From Rhodoferax sp. (GTDB taxonomy: Bacteria > Pseudomonadota > Gammaproteobacteria > Burkholderiales > Burkholderiaceae_C): DNA of 64,000 bases. The notes under the pieces were generated by a model. The model saw only the letters and a program-made list of their open reading frames with translations. It made no database searches and was not told the origin of the DNA. The stretch spans positions 1-64,000 of the forward strand of contig JAIFLV010000052.1 of the NCBI GenBank assembly GCA_020048895.1, in the 5' to 3' direction. The position numbers and the translations under genes are program-made. Below, piece by piece: positions 7,665 through 17,355 of this stretch (positions are counted from its first letter, which is position 1; each line of letters starts with the position of its first letter).

Positions 7665-9938
7665 TCAGGCGGTCACCGGGATATTTCTGTTTGCTGCGGG
7701 CATGCCATAGGCGCTCACGTACACGGATGAACCTGCCTGACCGGGGCGCCTGCTCACCAACTCGGCATGCAGCCGCTCCAACAGCTCCTGCGGCGTGGGA
7801 ATGTGGCGCAGCAGGCGAAACTGGCGAGTGACAGGTGCGAAGTCGCCCGGCGTCAGACCATTGAGCCGCTGGCGCACCAGCGACTGCAGCGGTGCTGCTG
7901 CTTGCATGCTGCCGCCGAGCAAGTGCAGTTCCTGCAAAAAGAACGCCCAGCACTGTGAGGCGGTCATGGCATGGAATGCAATCTTCCAGTCAAAGCGACG
8001 CAGGCTTGCCGGGTCGAGCTTTTCCAGCAAATTGGTGGTGCAGATAAACAGGCCCTCGTAGTCCTCCATCTGGGTGAGCAACTCATTGACTTGGGTGATC
8101 TCCCAGGAATGCCTGGCCTCGGCGCGGGATTGCAGGAAGGAGTCGGCTTCGTCCAAAATCAATACGCTGGGCTCGGCTGCGGCCGCAGAAAACATCTCGG
8201 CAATGTTCTTTTCAGTGCCGCCAACATACATCGACAACAGGTCCGAGCCGCGCCGCAGTACCACGGGCAGTTCTAGCGCGTGCGCTAAGTAGCGTGCCAG
8301 AGCGGTCTTGCCAGCCCCCGGTGGGCCGTAGAAACACATGGAACCACCTGGTGCCACTCGCAAGGAATTCACCAGTTGGGCAATGGGTACGTTGGTGTGT
8401 AGGTAGGCCAGGTCATACGCGGTGGCCATCGGGCGACTGGCGCGCGGCCTGGGCTGATTCAATAGTTTGGCGGATCGCTCCAAGACCTGCAGAACCCGCT
8501 TTTGCGCAGGAGCAGCATTGCCTTGAGCGAGTGTTTCAGTCTCGACAAGTCTGGCGACTTTGGCGGCCCGCTGCATTTGCGCTGGGGTGAGGTTGGCGCA
8601 TTCAGCCAAGTCTTCAAGCCACGAATCGTCATCACCCTGTTTGGCGATTTCGGAATTGGCCGCGTTGGCGTTGACAATCCCTTGCAGGTGGTGACAGGCA
8701 ATTTCGCGGCGCACAGCCCTTGGCGGCATGGTGAGATGCACTGAATAGTCAAAACGCCTGCGGTATGCCGGATCCAGTGCACTGACAGCATTGGTGATCC
8801 AGATGGATGGCACCGGGTTTTCCTCCAGTGCACGGTTCACCCACGCTTTTCCGGGAACCTCACCACGTTCGAGCATGTCTTCGACCTCATCGAACAAGAC
8901 CAGAGCGTTGCTTCGACGGCTTAACAGGCGTTGACACAAATTGAAAGCTTGCAAGCGCTCGATTCCCCGAATTGGAGCACCTTCATCGTCTGCACAGGCC
9001 ACTTCGTAAAGGTCAGCTTGCAGCACCTGGGCAATCACGCTGGCCAATTCAGTCTTACCCACACCGGGTGGACCGTACAGCAGGATATTGGTGCCATGAA
9101 GACCTTGACGCATGGACTCACGCAGGATGCCTGAGATGATCGACACCTCATCGGCCAGGTGTGGAAAGTGCGATGGATTCAGCGCGCTTGGGCTGCGCGG
9201 TGTGAAGAAATGACCGACCAGTGGCTCAATGGATTCGTGCTGATCCAGCATCAGGGCGGCAAGACCACGAGGCAGCTCCAGATAGTCTTCGAGGTCTTGT
9301 GCGTCTTTGGCAAGCTTCAGTATGCCGGTGCCGCGCAAATTGCCGTGCCGGCGAAAGGCACGTTGCAGATCGGCAGTGTGGCAGCACGTGAGGCAGGCCA
9401 TCAGAGCGACGCAGTCTTTTTCGCTGCCCAGTCGCAGTCTCATTGGAACAACGTTATCGTGGAATTGCTCGTCGCCATCCAGCAATATCAATACGCAAAG
9501 AATGACCATGTCGGTCTCTGTGAGATTCAGCAACTCGCCCAGCGCCTGCACGTTCTCAAACATGGGGTGAGAAAACTCAAGTACCTTGCTGCTAACGTTG
9601 CTCTGTGCTGCTGCCAGCAATTCTGCGGTCCAGCGCTTCTTGCGACGCTGGTCCGCCTCTGGGCCATGCTCCTGATCGTCGTCGTAGTTGATCGGATCGT
9701 CATCGCGTCCATGCCAATAATCCGGATTGCCAACTTTGAACAGTCTGCGCAGGTCTGAATCTTGGGGGAGTCGATCAGCTTTGTTGTACTTCAAAATCAA
9801 GGCCAGGACCCAGCGTTGAATCAAAGGCATCAAAGCGTCGTCGCCACAAGTTGTGGATACGCCTTTGCCCAAAGGCGCGAGTTGAAGTGTGTAGGCCAAT
9901 GTGGAGACCGGGGTGACAGCGTTTGTGCGTTGCGACAT
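7665..9938 (-). CDS. Double AAA+ ATPase (757 aa)
   Basis: ATG at 9938 with AAAGGAAAGAG upstream. After a ~270-residue helical N-terminal region, the first AAA+ module has Walker A GPPGVGKTE (289-297), Walker B ALVLFDEVED (345-354) and an RRRF finger near 393. The second has GPPGAGKTA (538-546), Walker B VLILDEADSF (592-601) and LRRFD near 646. The pore-loop region is MYVGGTEKNI. Both sites look catalytically intact. The architecture resembles Cdc48-, ClpB- or spastin-like remodelling ATPases without a protease partner. It heads a probable five- to six-gene minus-strand run and diverges from the deacetylase-like gene. Confidence 0.85.
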   Translation of the reverse strand: MSQRTNAVTPVSTLAYTLQLAPLGKGVSTTCGDDALMPLIQRWVLALILKYNKADRLPQDSDLRRLFKVGNPDYWHGRDDDPINYDDDQEHGPEADQRRKKRWTAELLAAAQSNVSSKVLEFSHPMFENVQALGELLNLTETDMVILCVLILLDGDEQFHDNVVPMRLRLGSEKDCVALMACLTCCHTADLQRAFRRHGNLRGTGILKLAKDAQDLEDYLELPRGLAALMLDQHESIEPLVGHFFTPRSPSALNPSHFPHLADEVSIISGILRESMRQGLHGTNILLYGPPGVGKTELASVIAQVLQADLYEVACADDEGAPIRGIERLQAFNLCQRLLSRRSNALVLFDEVEDMLERGEVPGKAWVNRALEENPVPSIWITNAVSALDPAYRRRFDYSVHLTMPPRAVRREIACHHLQGIVNANAANSEIAKQGDDDSWLEDLAECANLTPAQMQRAAKVARLVETETLAQGNAAPAQKRVLQVLERSAKLLNQPRPRASRPMATAYDLAYLHTNVPIAQLVNSLRVAPGGSMCFYGPPGAGKTALARYLAHALELPVVLRRGSDLLSMYVGGTEKNIAEMFSAAAAEPSVLILDEADSFLQSRAEARHSWEITQVNELLTQMEDYEGLFICTTNLLEKLDPASLRRFDWKIAFHAMTASQCWAFFLQELHLLGGSMQAAAPLQSLVRQRLNGLTPGDFAPVTRQFRLLRHIPTPQELLERLHAELVSRRPGQAGSSVYVSAYGMPAANRNIPVTA

Positions 9939-10073: not shown

Positions 10074-10913
10074 ATGAACCAGATTGATGTGTACTACACC
10101 CCGCAACAGGTTTCATGCCCGTCGGACAGTTCATCGCCTAGCCCCCGCAAGCCTGAGTGGGTGGTGAAGGAATGGTTGTATCGCAAGCTGCCTGTGCGGG
10201 TGATAGCACCCGTTGCAGCCACGCGTGATCAGATCGCTTTGGCGCATCACCCGCGTTATGTCGATGGCATTCTGAGTTGTGAATTGATGAATGGGTTTCG
10301 GGGGCGGAACAAGGACGTCGCGCAATCCTTGCCCTGGACCTGCGGCTCGTTTTTGTCGGCAGCGCGAGGTGCATTGGAAAATGGACTGGTGGCTTGCTCA
10401 CCTACATCGGGGTTTCACCATGCTGGTGTGAAAACCGCTTTTGGCTACTGCACTTTCAATGGTTTGATGGTGGCTGCGCTCAGTTTGAAAGCCGAGGGAA
10501 AAGTGTGTCGAGTCGGGATTCTCGACTGCGATCAGCACTTTGGCGATGGCACCGCTGAGATCATCGCGGCAAAGCGGCTCGACTGGATTCGCCACCTATC
10601 CAAAGAATACGTTGACCCAGATGAAGCCGAAGCATTTATTGCCCAGCTACCGGAGTTGGTAAGGAGCTTTGTTGATTGTGATTTGCTCATGTACCAAGCG
10701 GGTGCAGACCAGCATGTGAACGATCCATTGGGTGGTTTTCTGACCACCGAACAACTTGCCAGACGCGACCAAATCGTATTTACGGTGGCCAAGGCGATGG
10801 GCGTCCCCGTAGTCTGGAATTTGGCTGGCGGGTATCAAGATTCGCTGTACGAAGTTCTCAAGATACATACCAATACGATGTTGGCGTGCTCGGCCGCATA
10901 TGGCTGTGACTGA
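10074..10913 (+). CDS. Histone deacetylase / acetylpolyamine amidohydrolase-like protein
   Basis: 279 aa. The catalytic set of the arginase-deacetylase fold is present: tandem histidines in GFHHAG (115-116), metal ligands in DCDQHFGDG (Asp151, Asp153, His155), Asp212 in GADQH, and AGGYQ with Tyr254. Such zinc enzymes remove acetyl groups from polyamines, lysines or small molecules. It is shorter than usual (300-370 aa) and lacks sequence between the DxH motif and the second Asp. It diverges from the AAA+ gene across 135 bp, so co-regulation is possible. Its place in a candidate defence or remodelling island is unusual. Confidence 0.8.
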   Translation: MNQIDVYYTPQQVSCPSDSSSPSPRKPEWVVKEWLYRKLPVRVIAPVAATRDQIALAHHPRYVDGILSCELMNGFRGRNKDVAQSLPWTCGSFLSAARGALENGLVACSPTSGFHHAGVKTAFGYCTFNGLMVAALSLKAEGKVCRVGILDCDQHFGDGTAEIIAAKRLDWIRHLSKEYVDPDEAEAFIAQLPELVRSFVDCDLLMYQAGADQHVNDPLGGFLTTEQLARRDQIVFTVAKAMGVPVVWNLAGGYQDSLYEVLKIHTNTMLACSAAYGCD

Positions 10914-11874: not shown

Positions 11875-12793
11875 CTACTGCGGGTCCTGCGCATCGTCAA
11901 AGTGCGCCTCCACCCCACTGGGCAGCATCTGGATGGTGGCGCGCAAGCCAGGCACGCTGCGCATCAGGGCCTGTTCGACGCTGGTGCGCAAGGTGGCGGC
12001 ACGTTGCAGCGTCCAATTCGACGGCATGTGCATGTGCAGATCCACAAACCGGCGCTGCCCGGAGCGCCGCGTGATGACGTGGTCAAAGCGGATCGCGCGC
12101 TGGTCGTAGCCAGACAGCACCTTCGCAATTTCACGCAGCACTTCGGGCTCCACCGCTTCGTCCATCAGTCCCTGCGAAGAGCGCCACATCAGGTGGCCGC
12201 CTTCCCACAAAATATTCAAGGCCACGCCAATAGCCGCCACGGCGTCCAGCCACAGCCACCCCGTCAGCGCCACGCCCGCCAGACCTAACACCACGCCAGC
12301 GGAGGTCCACACATCGGTGACCAGGTGCCGGGCATCGGCTTCGAGCGCAATCGAGCGGTGCACTTTGGCCACGCTGAACATTACCCAGGCCAGCAGGCCG
12401 TTGAGTGCCGAGCTCAAAATAGAAAGCGCCAGACCCCAGCCGAGCTCCTGCAAGGGCTGCGGCTCCAGCAGTCGCGCAATGGCGGCCCAGATGATGCCCA
12501 CTGAAACGCCCACGATCAGGATACCCTCAAAGCCGGACGAGAAATACTCGGTCGGCCTTGTGGTGCCCGTAGGGATGGTCCTGGTCTGCAGGGCGCTGCG
12601 CGATGGTCACCATCAGCAAGGCAAACAAGGCGCTTGCGAGGTTGACAAAGGACTCCATCGCATCCGACAGCAAGCCCACCGAGTCGGTGATGTACCAGGC
12701 CAGCGTTTTGAGCACGATGGTGGTGACAGCCACTGCAATGGAAGCCCATAGCAAGTGTTTTGGCGTCAGGAAGCGTGTGGGAAGAGTGGCCAT
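11875..12793 (-). pseudogene. Cation diffusion facilitator (CDF) transporter, frameshifted
   Basis: Two ORFs on the same strand make up one CDF protein. 12,527-12,793 gives the first helices (DSVGLLSDAMESFVNL with the metal-site Asp, ending GHHKAD), and 11,875-12,513 gives the remaining helices (HLVTDVWTSAGVV, the second metal site) and the cytosolic domain. The break is at TCGGTCGG (12,548-12,555). Removing one TCGG restores GHHKAEYFSSGFEGIL, the expected CDF sequence. CDF proteins export Zn2+, Fe2+ or similar ions by proton antiport. It may be a pseudogene, a slippage variant or an assembly error. Confidence 0.85.
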
Positions 12794-12978
12794 AAGTAGT
12801 TTGGGAGCCGCTGGTTTTCAAGCATACAGCGCTTCGCCCACTCAGTGCACTGGAGCACAGAGCAATGTGGTCAAAAGGCCCATGCTCCTAAGGAACCCTT
12901 AAGGCTGGCTGCCTAGTATTCAAAGGGGGCAAGAAATCGTCGTCCTGCGATCCATTTCCCCTCCCCAGCAAGACTCCG

Positions 12979-14205
12979 ATGACCGCCGCGCAGTTGTTGA
13001 CCTACATCAGTGCAGCTGTGCTGCTGCAAGTGCTGCTCGCGGCAGCGGTCACTTTGTGGAAAAGAAAAAACGCCGTGGTGCCAACCCGGGTTGACGCCCC
13101 GCCGGTTGCCACCAAAGCGGACAGTGCATGGCCGGGTTGGCGCGATTTTCGAGTTGCCCGCCGTGCGTGGGAAGACGCCAATCAGAGCCAATGCTCGTTT
13201 TACCTGGAACCGGTCGATGGTGCGGCGCTCAAGCCGTTCAAGCCCGGTCAGTTCCTCACATTTTCCTTGCCAGTGTCGCCACAGACGACGGTGACGCGCT
13301 GCTACTCGCTCTCGGACGCACCGCATCCGCAGCACTTTCGCATCACTGTCAAGCGCGCAATTGCGCCCGATCAGACGCCCGCAGTGGCTCCAGGGGTTGC
13401 TTCGAACTACTTGCACGATCACGTTCAGGTAGGGGACGTGCTACAGGTGCGTGCGCCTTCGGGACACTTCTTCCTGCATGCCGATGATCCGGCGCCAGCG
13501 GTCCTGATCGGCGGTGGCATTGGCATCACACCCATGATGAGCATGCTTCTGTGGAGCCTGCAGACACATCCGAGCCGCGTGCTGCACCTGTTCTATGGTG
13601 TGCGCAACCGCGCCGACCACGCCTACAAGGCGACGCTCGAGAATCTGGCGCAGCGCCAGGCCAATGTGCATTTGCATGTGGTGTACAGCCGCCCTGGGCC
13701 CGCCGATGCCTCGGGCCAGGACTTCCAGCACACGGGGCACGTCGACATCCATCGGATCAGGCAAACGTTGCCGCACGGACGCCATGTGTTCTATATCTGT
13801 GGATCGGCGCCGATGATGGAGAACCTGGTGCCAGCCTTGGCCGATTGGGGCGTGCAGCGCAGCGACTTGCATTTTGAAGCGTTTGGCCCGGCCAATGTGC
13901 TTTTGCCTGGAGATGCCGCAGCGCAAACCCCCGGGGCCGATGCCGCCCCGGTAGAGATCCATTTCGCCGACTCGGGCCGCACACTGGAGTGGCAATCCAG
14001 CGATGGCACGCTGCTCGATTTCGCCGAACAGCATGGCATTGCCATGGCATCAGGTTGCCGTGCCGGGGGCTGCGGTTGTTGTGAGACACGCATCACCCAC
14101 GGCGAAGTGCGCTACGACCATGCGCCCGACTACGATACCGCGCCCGGCCACTGCCTGCCCTGCGTGGCCAGGCCGGCAAGTGCCAGCTTGGGGCTGTCGG
14201 CATGA
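12979..14205 (+). CDS. Membrane-anchored FAD/NAD(P)H oxidoreductase with 2Fe-2S ferredoxin domain
   Basis: 408 aa. The N-terminal helix (LLTYISAAVLLQVLLAAAV) anchors it. A ferredoxin-reductase FAD domain follows with RCYSLSDAP. The NAD(P) domain has GGGIGITPMMSML and CGSAPMM. The C-terminal plant-type ferredoxin has CRAGGCGCC and a distal Cys in HCLPC. It should pass electrons from NAD(P)H through FAD to the 2Fe-2S cluster. Its stop overlaps the next gene (ATGA), so the cytochrome b-like protein encoded there is the likely acceptor. Compare oxygenase reductases and nitric oxide dioxygenase reductase modules; here no oxygenase is present. Confidence 0.85.
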   Translation: MTAAQLLTYISAAVLLQVLLAAAVTLWKRKNAVVPTRVDAPPVATKADSAWPGWRDFRVARRAWEDANQSQCSFYLEPVDGAALKPFKPGQFLTFSLPVSPQTTVTRCYSLSDAPHPQHFRITVKRAIAPDQTPAVAPGVASNYLHDHVQVGDVLQVRAPSGHFFLHADDPAPAVLIGGGIGITPMMSMLLWSLQTHPSRVLHLFYGVRNRADHAYKATLENLAQRQANVHLHVVYSRPGPADASGQDFQHTGHVDIHRIRQTLPHGRHVFYICGSAPMMENLVPALADWGVQRSDLHFEAFGPANVLLPGDAAAQTPGADAAPVEIHFADSGRTLEWQSSDGTLLDFAEQHGIAMASGCRAGGCGCCETRITHGEVRYDHAPDYDTAPGHCLPCVARPASASLGLSA

Positions 14206-14789
14206 GTCTGAAACTGCCCAAGCTGATGACCCGCGAGGTACTGCCGTTTTTGCTGTCCTTTGCGGCGCTGGTGTTTGCCACGCTGTTGGTGGATGTGGCA
14301 CTGCACCTGTTCAATCTGGTGTGGATTGGAAAGTACCTCGGCATCCCGGGTACGCTGCTCATCCTCGGCTCATTTGGCTATTCACTGCGCAAGCGCAAAC
14401 TGATTCAGCGCGGTCATCCGGTGAGCCTGTTGCGCTGGCATGAAGGCATGGCCTGGGCGGGGTCTCTGCTTATTCTGGTGCACGCCGGGATTCACTTCAA
14501 CTCGATTCTGGGTTGGCTGGCAGTCGTGGCAATGCTCATCAATGTGGCCAGTGGCCTGGCAGGCAAGTTTCTGCTGGACCGCGCCAGAAACCGCATGAAC
14601 GAGGCCCTGCAGACGGTACGCGAACAAGATACTCCTGCTGCACAGTGGGAAGACCGGATGTATTGGGACAGCCTGACCTTCGATGCCGTAAAGCAGTGGC
14701 GCGCCGTGCACTTCCCCATCACGCTGGCGTTTGGTGTGCTGGGGTTGGCCCATATCATCGCCGCGCTGCTTTTCTGGGGCTGGAAATGA
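14202..14789 (+). CDS. Cytochrome b-like integral membrane protein (195 aa)
   Basis: About four to five hydrophobic helices. Histidines are placed as possible haem ligands in RWHEGMAW, LVHAGIHF, VHFPIT and GLAHIIAA, as in ferric-reductase-like or YedZ-type cytochromes b. It is translationally coupled at both ends (ATGA with the flavoprotein and ATGA with the multihaem cytochrome). The inferred role is to carry electrons across the membrane from the cytosolic FAD/2Fe-2S protein to the periplasmic haems. No exact family name is claimed. Confidence 0.7.
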   Translation: MSLKLPKLMTREVLPFLLSFAALVFATLLVDVALHLFNLVWIGKYLGIPGTLLILGSFGYSLRKRKLIQRGHPVSLLRWHEGMAWAGSLLILVHAGIHFNSILGWLAVVAMLINVASGLAGKFLLDRARNRMNEALQTVREQDTPAAQWEDRMYWDSLTFDAVKQWRAVHFPITLAFGVLGLAHIIAALLFWGWK

Positions 14790-15496
14790 CGCGTCGCCAG
14801 ATACTTGCGCTCATCAGCGGCAATTTGCTGGTTTTGCTGGCGCTGGTGTTCATCTATCCGCATCTGATGGTGGCACCTGGTCCCCTCGTGCAGGAACATG
14901 CCGCACTGGCGACCGATTGTTTTGCGTGTCATACCGCACTGCGGGGTGTTAGCGTGCAAAAGTGCATAAGCTGCCACACCCTCAAAGATATCGGTGTGCG
15001 CACTACCAAGGGCGAGCCCGTAGCGCTAAAGGAGCGCAAGGTGGCGTTCCACCAGCAATTGGAGCAACAGAACTGCGTGGCCTGCCACAGTGACCATGCC
15101 GGCCCCAAGCTGGTGCAAAAGGACCAGAAGCCTTTCTCGCATGCCATGCTGCGTCTGGCGGTGCGTGAGGATTGCAAGACCTGCCATATCGCGCCACGCA
15201 ACAATTTACACAAGGATGTGACCGTCAACTGCAAGCAATGCCATACCCAGAATGCCTGGAAGCCCGCCACCTTCGAGCACGACAAGCTGTTCCTGCTTGA
15301 CAGCGACCACAAGACCGACTGCGTGACCTGCCACACCAACAATGACTACAGTCGCTACACCTGCTATGGCTGCCACGAACACACACCCGCCAAGATACGC
15401 GCAGAACACGTCGAAGAAGGTATTTCGAACTTTGACAACTGTGTGAAATGCCACCGCAGCGCACAGGGCAAACCTGAGGGCGGGCACGACGACTGA
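14786..15496 (+). CDS. Octahaem c-type cytochrome, membrane-anchored
   Basis: The track begins this ORF at 14,513, but the ATG at 14,786 overlaps the upstream stop and is followed by a hydrophobic anchor (ISGNLLVLLALVFIYPHL). The 236-aa protein has eight CxxCH haem sites (CFACH, CISCH, CVACH, CKTCH, CKQCH, CVTCH, CYGCH, CVKCH) and many extra His for axial ligation. It resembles class III / doubled-CxxCH cytochromes. It should be periplasmic and act as electron outlet of the flavoprotein-cytochrome b pair. The terminal acceptor is not identified. Confidence 0.85.
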   Translation: MTRRQILALISGNLLVLLALVFIYPHLMVAPGPLVQEHAALATDCFACHTALRGVSVQKCISCHTLKDIGVRTTKGEPVALKERKVAFHQQLEQQNCVACHSDHAGPKLVQKDQKPFSHAMLRLAVREDCKTCHIAPRNNLHKDVTVNCKQCHTQNAWKPATFEHDKLFLLDSDHKTDCVTCHTNNDYSRYTCYGCHEHTPAKIRAEHVEEGISNFDNCVKCHRSAQGKPEGGHDD

Positions 15497-15559
15497 TCGG
15501 GTGGATGGGAGCCTGTCTTGGCGCCGAAGATTAGGGCAAAATGGCCCCATCGGACCCAC

Positions 15560-16828
15560 ATGAAGTTCAGTAACCTTTCCATCCGCCTCAAGCTTGTCGC
15601 ACTGCTCGGAGTGAGTGCCGCCATGGCACTGGTGGTATCGGCAATCCTGTCGCTGGTGCTGACCTTTTTCTCGGTGCGTGACGAATCCCTGCGCCACTTG
15701 CGCCAGACCGCCGACATCGCTCAGGACAATCTGACCGCCACGCTGGCTTTCCGCGACAACTCCAGTGCCACCCGCATGTTGGCGTCTCTGGCTTCGAATC
15801 CACGAATTCTGGCCGCGCTTATTACCGACGAAGAGACGCAGCTGTTCAGCATCTATGTTTCGCCTGCGGCCTCGCCACCCGACGTCGCGCACTATCTTGC
15901 GGAAGTGGCGGCGCTGGCCCGGCAGCAACACACCCAGCTTTTCTTGCAGCACGAAGGTTTTGCATCCATTGCCATGGGTTATATGTTTGCAGTCAACCCT
16001 ATCGTCTTTGACGGTCGGACCATTGGCACGCTCACCCTGCTCTCCGACAATGTGATTCTGAAGGAGCGTATCAGCGCTTTTGTATTGATGCAGTTACTGG
16101 TTTCGGTCTTGACACTGGTGATCATCGCGTTCATATCCATCCGGTTGCAGCGTGTCTTCACTACCCCGATCTTTCACATTATCGAGACGATACGCACCAT
16201 CTCGCAGACCAAGAACTACGCCGTGAGTGTGAATACTATCCAGAACGACGAGTTCAAGGTGCTCTACACCCATTTCAACGACATGATTGCCGAGATCCAT
16301 GAGCGCGACAGCCAACTGAGTCGGCTGGCTACGACCGATCCGCTCACCGGATTGGCCAATCGCCGCCACGCCATGGACGTGATGCAGACCATGGTGACGC
16401 GGGCGCGGCGCAAACAGGAGCAGTTTGGCCTGGTGATGTTCGACGTCGACCATTTCAAGCGTATCAATGACCAATATGGGCACCCGGTGGGGGATCTGGT
16501 GCTCAAGTCGGTGGCCACGACACTCACCCGTGCTGCGCGCGAGATCGATCTGGTGGCGCGCATCGGCGGGGAGGAATTTCTGGTGCTGTGCGACAGCAGT
16601 GATCTGGAGACTACCCACCAGATTGCCGAACGCATGCGGTCCGCGATCGAGCAGGCCGTTATTTCCGGCACCGACGGGACGCAGCTCAAGGTGACCGCCA
16701 GCGCTGGCGTGTACGCATCGGTGCCCGATTCGGAAGATCTGAAAGTGTCGCTGTCGCGCGTGGACGCAGCGCTGTATCAGGCCAAGGAAGCAGGACGAAA
16801 CAAGGTAGTCAACTGGGAGAAGCAATGA
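15560..16828 (+). CDS. Diguanylate cyclase with periplasmic sensor and HAMP-like linker (YfiN-like)
   Basis: Start ATG at 15,560 (MKFSNLSIRLKL); the track's 15,518 start adds residues of no value. TM1 is near residues 10-35, a ~120-residue periplasmic domain of the CHASE8/YfiN kind follows, TM2 is at about 165-190, then a HAMP-like linker. The GGDEF domain has ATTDPLTGLANRR and an intact GGEEF site. REID five residues before GGEEF forms an inhibitory I-site. It should make c-di-GMP from GTP and be product-inhibited. The stop overlaps the yfiR-like start (ATGA), matching the known YfiN-YfiR partnership. Confidence 0.88.
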   Translation: MKFSNLSIRLKLVALLGVSAAMALVVSAILSLVLTFFSVRDESLRHLRQTADIAQDNLTATLAFRDNSSATRMLASLASNPRILAALITDEETQLFSIYVSPAASPPDVAHYLAEVAALARQQHTQLFLQHEGFASIAMGYMFAVNPIVFDGRTIGTLTLLSDNVILKERISAFVLMQLLVSVLTLVIIAFISIRLQRVFTTPIFHIIETIRTISQTKNYAVSVNTIQNDEFKVLYTHFNDMIAEIHERDSQLSRLATTDPLTGLANRRHAMDVMQTMVTRARRKQEQFGLVMFDVDHFKRINDQYGHPVGDLVLKSVATTLTRAAREIDLVARIGGEEFLVLCDSSDLETTHQIAERMRSAIEQAVISGTDGTQLKVTASAGVYASVPDSEDLKVSLSRVDAALYQAKEAGRNKVVNWEKQ

Positions 16829-17355
16829 GCAATCGAGCGTGTGTGTGGGTACTGCTGCTGATGGCGCAGCTGTTTTCCGGGGGGGCACTCGCCAGCCAGG
16901 AAGAAAACAAACTGATGGCGGTGTTCCTGGGCCGATTTGCAAGTTACATCGAATTGCCGGACCGCGGATCGAAACAATTCACCATCACCCTGATCGACGA
17001 AAACCCCTTTGGCAGTTTGCTTGACGATCTCTACCTGGGCAAGCAGATCAACGGCAAACCCGTGGTCATCCGCTATGCCACACGGATTGATGACATCGGC
17101 CAAAGCGACTTGCTCTTTATCACCCTGGTCAACCCACGCACCCGCCAGGAAGCGATTGACTATGGCGCCAAAAATTCGATTCTGACCATCAGCACGTCCA
17201 CCGGCTTCGCCGAGCGCGGCGGCATCATCCAGCTGGACTTTTTGCAGCAGCAGACCCGCATCAAGATCAACCACGCGGCGGCCCTCAAGTCCAACATCCG
17301 CATTGGCGCGCCACTGCTCTCGCTGGCCACTGTAGTGAAGGGGGTTGCACCATGA
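16825..17355 (+). CDS. YfiR-family periplasmic regulator
   Basis: 176 aa with a signal peptide (about 24 residues ending GGALA). The mature part fits the YfiR/DUF4154 family: KLMAVFLGRFASYIELP, FTITLIDENPFG, ILTISTSTGFAERGGIIQLDF, IRIGAPLLSLATVV. In Pseudomonas, YfiR binds the periplasmic part of the cyclase YfiN and holds it inactive. The ATGA overlaps with the cyclase upstream and the TonB receptor downstream suggest the three act as one module. The cysteines used for redox sensing in P. aeruginosa YfiR are not evident here. Confidence 0.85.
   Translation: MSNRACVWVLLLMAQLFSGGALASQEENKLMAVFLGRFASYIELPDRGSKQFTITLIDENPFGSLLDDLYLGKQINGKPVVIRYATRIDDIGQSDLLFITLVNPRTRQEAIDYGAKNSILTISTSTGFAERGGIIQLDFLQQQTRIKINHAAALKSNIRIGAPLLSLATVVKGVAP

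Follow-up and report, generated by a model that had tools for sequence, protein, structure and literature searches.

In the 64,000-nucleotide stretch of Rhodoferax DNA analysed here (the window), a three-gene operon appears to encode an electron conduit across the inner membrane. We consider it rather probable that its products form one module transferring electrons from NAD(P)H to the periplasm, and that this module is a low-oxygen outlet in many relatives. The predicted domains, cofactor residues, membrane anchors and gene linkage, together with FNR-type promoters in relatives, are read from the DNA itself. The genes and their junctions are located as follows:

12979..14205, + strand: gene for an N-anchored NAD(P)H reductase, 408 aa (ORF and Pfam)
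14202..14205, + strand: ATGA overlap of the reductase stop and the cytochrome b start (ORF reading)
14202..14789, + strand: gene for a small membrane cytochrome b, 195 aa (alignment and helical model)
14786..14789, + strand: ATGA overlap of the cytochrome b stop and the cytochrome c start (ORF reading; kept in 69/76 relatives)
14786..15496, + strand: gene for an octahaem c-type cytochrome, 236 aa, true ATG at 14786 (translation)

An earlier note on this DNA had described a three-gene operon with two 4-bp overlaps, and this observation is borne out by the open reading frames, the Pfam matches, the eight CXXCH motifs and the conserved histidines. Its suggestion that the overlaps fix the stoichiometry of the products goes beyond what overlaps can show; what they would imply is translational coupling of neighbouring genes. 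In relatives, the reductase/cytochrome b junction is variable, being of −4 bp in 15/76 loci and of −1 bp in 23/76. All three proteins contain membrane segments: the reductase and the octahaem protein have N-terminal anchors, and the cytochrome b has several helices.

The octahaem protein served as query in a single scan of genome contigs; this found 132 relatives, of which 80 were kept. A cytochrome b gene lies beside the multihaem gene in 78/80 of them, and the reductase gene is directly upstream, in the same order, in 76/80; because of these figures, the linkage of the trio cannot be put down to chance. The four loci without reductase are two that lie at contig ends (L115 and L140) and two with the cytochrome b only (L116 and L118). 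In L116, a DUF4010/MgtC-like gene occupies the place of the reductase beside the cytochrome b and the multihaem cytochrome c.

The reductase matches Pfam families FAD_binding_6, NAD_binding_1 and, at its C-terminal end, Fer2. Its transmembrane helix is predicted at about residues 1-28, and an N-terminal transmembrane segment is present in 72/75 orthologues. Among these 75 sequences, the FAD motif RCYS (residues 107-110), the NAD motif GGIGITP and the plant-type [2Fe-2S] ligands C360, C365, C368 and C395 are near-invariant. The solved structures nearest to this protein are flavohaemoprotein reductase domains.

The product of the second gene has no match in Pfam or NCBIfam. An alignment of 46 sequences (A1) contains six invariant histidines, and upon adding 26 distant relatives four remain conserved: H80, H94 and H184 in 72/72 sequences and H170 in 71/72. 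Identification of the protein as a cytochrome b is supported by these four predicted ligands, which form two H-X13-H pairs, H80/H94 and H170/H184, on helices three and five of a five-helix membrane protein (helical AlphaFold model of moderate confidence, pLDDT 74). Because the two pairs lie on these helices, one b haem should be located near each membrane face, the two bis-His haems being stacked in a NOX-like manner. The same pattern of two b haems, one toward each face of the membrane, is found in cytochrome bc1. A Foldseek search with the cytochrome b model gave no match below E 0.001; the top matches, which are non-significant and suggestive only, were complex III cytochrome b and NOX5.

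We then compared the front half of the module with known flavoprotein/di-haem systems. Like the module, MsrQ together with Fre combines a separate cytosolic FAD/NAD(P)H flavoprotein, a small di-haem membrane protein and a periplasmic recipient (PMC5676040). The acceptor of MsrPQ, however, is a molybdoenzyme and not a multihaem cytochrome c, and Fre has neither a 2Fe-2S domain nor a membrane anchor, both of which are present in the reductase of the module. Neither the window cytochrome b nor the families listed for the 46 relatives included a match to MsrQ/Ferric_reduct (PF01794) at E<=1, and profile alignment of the cytochrome b with 17 MsrQ-like sequences (hhalign) gave no signal (P=0.27). 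No conserved adjacent cluster with the msrP molybdoenzyme was found among the 80 loci. The NOX/ferric reductase family shares with the module the path from NAD(P)H through FAD to two bis-His haems with HX12-14H spacing, and both pairs of the cytochrome b, H80-X13-H94 and H170-X13-H184, have this spacing; comparison with a NOX profile gave a weak similarity (P=7e-4, probability 26%). Against membership of NOX speaks that the FRD and FNR parts, fused in NOX, are encoded by two genes here and in relatives. Furthermore, the NOX FAD motif HPF[TS] (PMC5676040) is absent from the reductase, which has the near-invariant RCYS instead. Unlike NOX and ferric reductases, the module has a 2Fe-2S cluster and ends in a multihaem cytochrome c rather than in O2 or Fe(III). 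Since the cytochrome b lacks the PF01794 match, the NOX fusion and the NOX FAD motif, we have filed it under neither family.

The third protein carries exactly eight CXXCH motifs in translation, an N-terminal membrane anchor at about residues 3-35 and Pfam matches of class III/c7 type (Cytochrom_CIII/Cytochrome_C7). A 43-sequence alignment (A2) shows nine invariant histidines outside the CXXCH motifs, so that all eight c haems can be bis-His and six-coordinate. This protein therefore looks like an electron wire rather than an enzyme. As for a vacant or lysine-ligated haem of the OTR/HAO type, the nine spare histidines permit bis-His ligation throughout, the structure model being poor (pLDDT 57). 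A decahaem protein of the MtrA/DmsE type (TIGR03508) was ruled out, with 32.8 bits against a cut-off of 192.2. The octahaem cluster of the Gallionellaceae pangenome paper was also discarded, being listed there as a tetrathionate reductase, another protein type.

The electron path proposed in the earlier note, running from NAD(P)H through FAD, 2Fe-2S and b haems to eight c haems, agrees with the domains, ligands and anchors, and with the linkage of the genes in about 76 relatives. Cytosolic NAD(P)H would reduce the FAD of the anchored reductase, and the [2Fe-2S] cluster of this protein would receive the electrons from there. From the cluster they would reach the b haem on the cytosolic side (H80/H170) and, across the membrane, the one on the periplasmic side (H94/H184). 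The latter would reduce the anchored octahaem cytochrome c, and this protein in turn periplasmic partners encoded elsewhere. From these features we infer the direction of flow and the complex itself. As judged from its predicted parts, the module would belong with the transmembrane haem bridges that feed extracytosolic redox proteins.

Inner-membrane bridges to periplasmic multihaem cytochromes c are also known from Geobacter, as CbcL, CbcBA and ImcH, CbcL being a bc-type cytochrome (PMC12307469). In contrast to the module, these are fed by menaquinol and have no NAD(P)H flavoprotein, and the presence of a predicted NAD(P)H reductase within the operon argues against a quinol-fed bridge of the CbcL/ImcH type. 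The cytochrome b could in principle be reduced by quinol. As in the module, the Ohc, Nhc and Hmc systems of sulfate reducers combine a multihaem cytochrome c, a cytochrome b and an Fe-S subunit in one operon; their Fe-S subunit is of the 4Fe-4S type, has no FAD/NAD domain, and the complexes either feed menaquinone and hydrogenase systems or are fed by them. Assignment to the Ohc octahaem complex, which is defined by a 4Fe-4S subunit and a NarI-type cytochrome b, was rejected, as the partner in the module has FAD, NAD and 2Fe-2S domains and its cytochrome b has no NarI match. The earlier note had not recognised this three-part combination, and we likewise found no known complex to which the whole trio could be assigned, nor any model or paper covering it within the limited full-text literature searched. 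The nearest known systems are MsrQ plus Fre, or a split NOX, for the front half and CbcL/ImcH without quinol for the back half.

We next looked at the regions upstream of the reductase gene, using as controls the upstream regions of other genes at the same loci. In the window, this region is shared with a divergently transcribed neighbour:

12794..12978, + strand: intergenic region shared with the divergent CDF gene, GTCAA half-site near 12861-12874
11875..12793, − strand: divergent CDF (cation efflux) transporter, Pfam Cation_efflux and ZT_dimer on the C-terminal part; candidate neighbour

A TTGAY-N4-RTCAA box (at least 9/10 positions) is present upstream of the reductase in 31/71 relatives, compared with 11/518 controls (p=6e-23). 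This FNR/ANR-like box lies 48-149 bp before the reductase start, and a −10-like hexamer follows 21-22 bp downstream of it, with almost no other spacing; such a layout reads as that of a class-II FNR/ANR-type promoter. Box and −10 element together score at least 12/16 in 39/71 relatives against 12/516 controls, the 71 relatives being related and hence non-independent, and the full architecture is absent in the other 32/71. Because of this enrichment, the operon in many relatives is probably induced by low oxygen. On the tree, the occurrence of the box is patchy and requires 12 changes, at least eight of them forced by well-supported branches; the box therefore does not represent one inherited sequence. 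Its consensus equals that of the Burkholderia Anr box TTGATCTCGATCAA found upstream of cytochrome bd genes (PMC9104464). CRP-type boxes were discarded as an explanation, their upstream count being slightly above that of shuffles and far under the FNR signal. The upstream region of the window copy has no good FNR/ANR box: it scores 9/16, the commonest value among controls, so that the case for low-oxygen control concerns relatives rather than this copy. Near kin within the genus of the window have partial boxes upstream. The promoter finding is new to this analysis; like the seven- and ten-haem forms and the cation-transport and stress genes beside the module, it lay beyond what the earlier note could draw from the window sequence.

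Many relatives probably express the operon under oxygen limitation, so the module probably serves mainly as a drain: while the oxidases are slow, surplus electrons from NAD(P)H would leave for the periplasm without entering the quinone pool. This low-oxygen use is again what we infer. Operation in the reverse direction, from periplasmic electrons to NAD(P)H, might be considered for carriers from lithotrophic lineages (Thiodiazotropha, Parasulfuritortus, Sulfuritalea). The module has no coupling site for such an uphill reaction, however, and both the heterotrophy of hosts and an induction of the FNR type speak rather for export, so that we regard this as extremely improbable. FNR/DNR boxes also overlap with NO-type control, which would be compatible with the module acting as a donor to small O2/NO-binding periplasmic haem proteins in a detoxification chain. 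A set comprising SHP (the SHP-type DUF1924), DHC and cytochrome b561 is indeed encoded near the module, at varying distance, in about 6-7 of the 80 loci, and directly upstream of it in L089 and L073. This set is nevertheless absent from more than 90% of loci and has its own cytochrome b, and we consider a role in such a chain very improbable.

As the destination of the electrons, the earlier note had suggested a periplasmic or extracellular reductase; a neighbourhood survey of the 80 loci found no terminal reductase linked in a conserved way. Neighbouring genes were called by a codon-position GC score, since longest-ORF calling gave antisense artefacts. The counts, taken within 900 bp unless otherwise said, are raw numbers and serve as leads. 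In about 10 loci the module has a P2-type cation ATPase gene beside it; several loci, that of the window among them, have a CDF exporter gene there. Subsets of loci have DUF4010/MgtC, aquaporin, universal stress, BON, GDT1, VIT1 or PRC-barrel genes as neighbours. The universal stress and BON proteins partly resemble the contents of lxa, a low-oxygen locus in Burkholderia cenocepacia, where they occur with a cytochrome c (PMC6127331).

The transporter genes might suggest a metal-ion reductase or a module for metal homeostasis, in which Fe(III), Cu(II) or Mn would be reduced in the periplasm for the adjoining importers or exporters. Apart from the cation ATPases and CDF exporters, VIT1 and GDT1 genes beside the module are in line with this, as is a distant seven-haem form among copper-resistance genes of Sphingobium and Salinimonas plasmids; a VIT1 gene beside NAD-linked MsrQ-like systems has been read as iron assimilation (PMC8238504). 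The type of transporter varies, however (P2 ATPase, CDF, VIT1, GDT1, DUF4010/MgtC, aquaporin), most loci have none adjacent, and the version on a Legionella plasmid occurs without metal genes. We therefore judge a metal-related role of this kind rather unlikely.

Another outlet to be weighed is extracellular electron transfer, for which the module would provide an NAD(P)H entry via MtrA/MtrB towards minerals or humics. The genome of the window has mtrCAB-like genes, and within its genus MtrA is present in 8/10 module carriers and in 8/27 other genomes (p=0.009), an association that may reflect genome size. These genes lie on another contig (C124, 6000-25000; locus L179), in a cluster with two MtrC/OmcA-like decahaem cytochromes, MtrA and a split MtrB/PioB porin, which also holds its own pair of a nonahaem cytochrome c and a cytochrome b561. 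An MtrA-type protein scored over the cut-off in 9/30 carrier genomes only. This rules out a universal link to MtrA and makes a single universal acceptor unlikely; entry to Mtr as the function of the module we consider decidedly unlikely. The best reading is that of a general valve from NAD(P)H to the periplasm whose outlet varies by host, the final acceptor probably differing between hosts.

Carriers of the module belong to Burkholderiales, Rhodocyclales, some Gammaproteobacteria (Thiodiazotropha, Methylococcaceae) and some Alphaproteobacteria. In the genus of the window its occurrence is patchy, with a long or strong match in 10/37 genomes, and a class-wide draw gave strong matches in 8/369 genomes, that of the window among the eight; we conclude that it is an accessory module. 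Rhodoferax MAG Bin2_7 has two copies (L132 and L133) from distant branches of the tree, which suggests horizontal transfer or an old duplication. Eight haem motifs are found in 65/80 proteins and ten in 13/80 (L090, L091, L095, L096, L099, L102, L106-L108, L111, L112, L122 and L124), the other two being read incompletely. The ten-haem form has an extra two-haem stretch and is spread over different parts of the tree. At least four changes are forced, so that the stretch must have been gained or lost more than once.

A plasmid version of the module was found in Sphingobium, Salinimonas and Legionella, in the same three-part order as in the window, with a longer reductase (525-645 aa), a cytochrome b of 205-252 aa and a cytochrome c with seven CXXCH motifs. 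All three of its proteins are homologous to those of the module, the reductase with E values of 1e-32 to 1e-42, and in two of the three plasmids, those of Sphingobium and Salinimonas, it lies among copper-resistance genes. Plasmid pEMTOL02 of Emticicia oligotrophica (L141, Bacteroidota) encodes a related cytochrome b with ccsA and a 4Fe-4S/pyridine-nucleotide oxidoreductase; cytochromes with 23 and 40 CXXCH motifs belong to this cluster, followed by a 538-aa protein resembling an outer-membrane barrel. The plasmid and Emticicia arrangements show that the membrane core is paired with differing cytosolic donors and differing wires. Tentatively, and with somewhat more doubt than confidence, we propose that the trio represents a widespread, hitherto undescribed family of oxidoreductases between NAD(P)H and multihaem cytochromes c, with a split NOX-like core and a wire of seven, eight or ten haems. 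These would provide proteobacteria that otherwise live aerobically with a safety valve for electrons at low oxygen, and would have been recruited into plasmid copper-resistance regions.

The best-studied routes to periplasmic multihaem cytochromes (CymA, ImcH, CbcL) begin at quinol. A direct route from NAD(P)H, if true, would let cells dispose of reductant at low potential, with neither the quinone pool nor proton pumping involved. It would bear on the survival of aerobes, strict or facultative, upon loss of oxygen, and on how many bacteria lacking mtr genes could still weakly reduce metals or electrodes. Strong FNR-type boxes, perfect or nearly so, stand upstream of the operon in cultured carriers such as Aquabacterium humicola RJY3 and Ideonella sp. 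A 288, which makes the proposal open to testing there.

Several further genes surround the module in the window. The CDF gene is frameshifted near 12545 by four extra bases, CCGA being repeated (frame analysis); this is either a pseudogene or an assembly error in the MAG. At lower coordinates are a gene for a histone-deacetylase-like hydrolase (10074-10913, + strand) and one for a 757-aa AAA ATPase with two predicted P-loop regions (7665-9938, − strand). Directly after the module (15518-17355, + strand), a CHASE8-GGDEF diguanylate cyclase gene overlaps by 4 bp with a YfiR/HmsC-like gene, behind which lies a gene for a TonB receptor. In the relative L061 (89% identical), the cyclase gene and the one after it are likewise adjacent.
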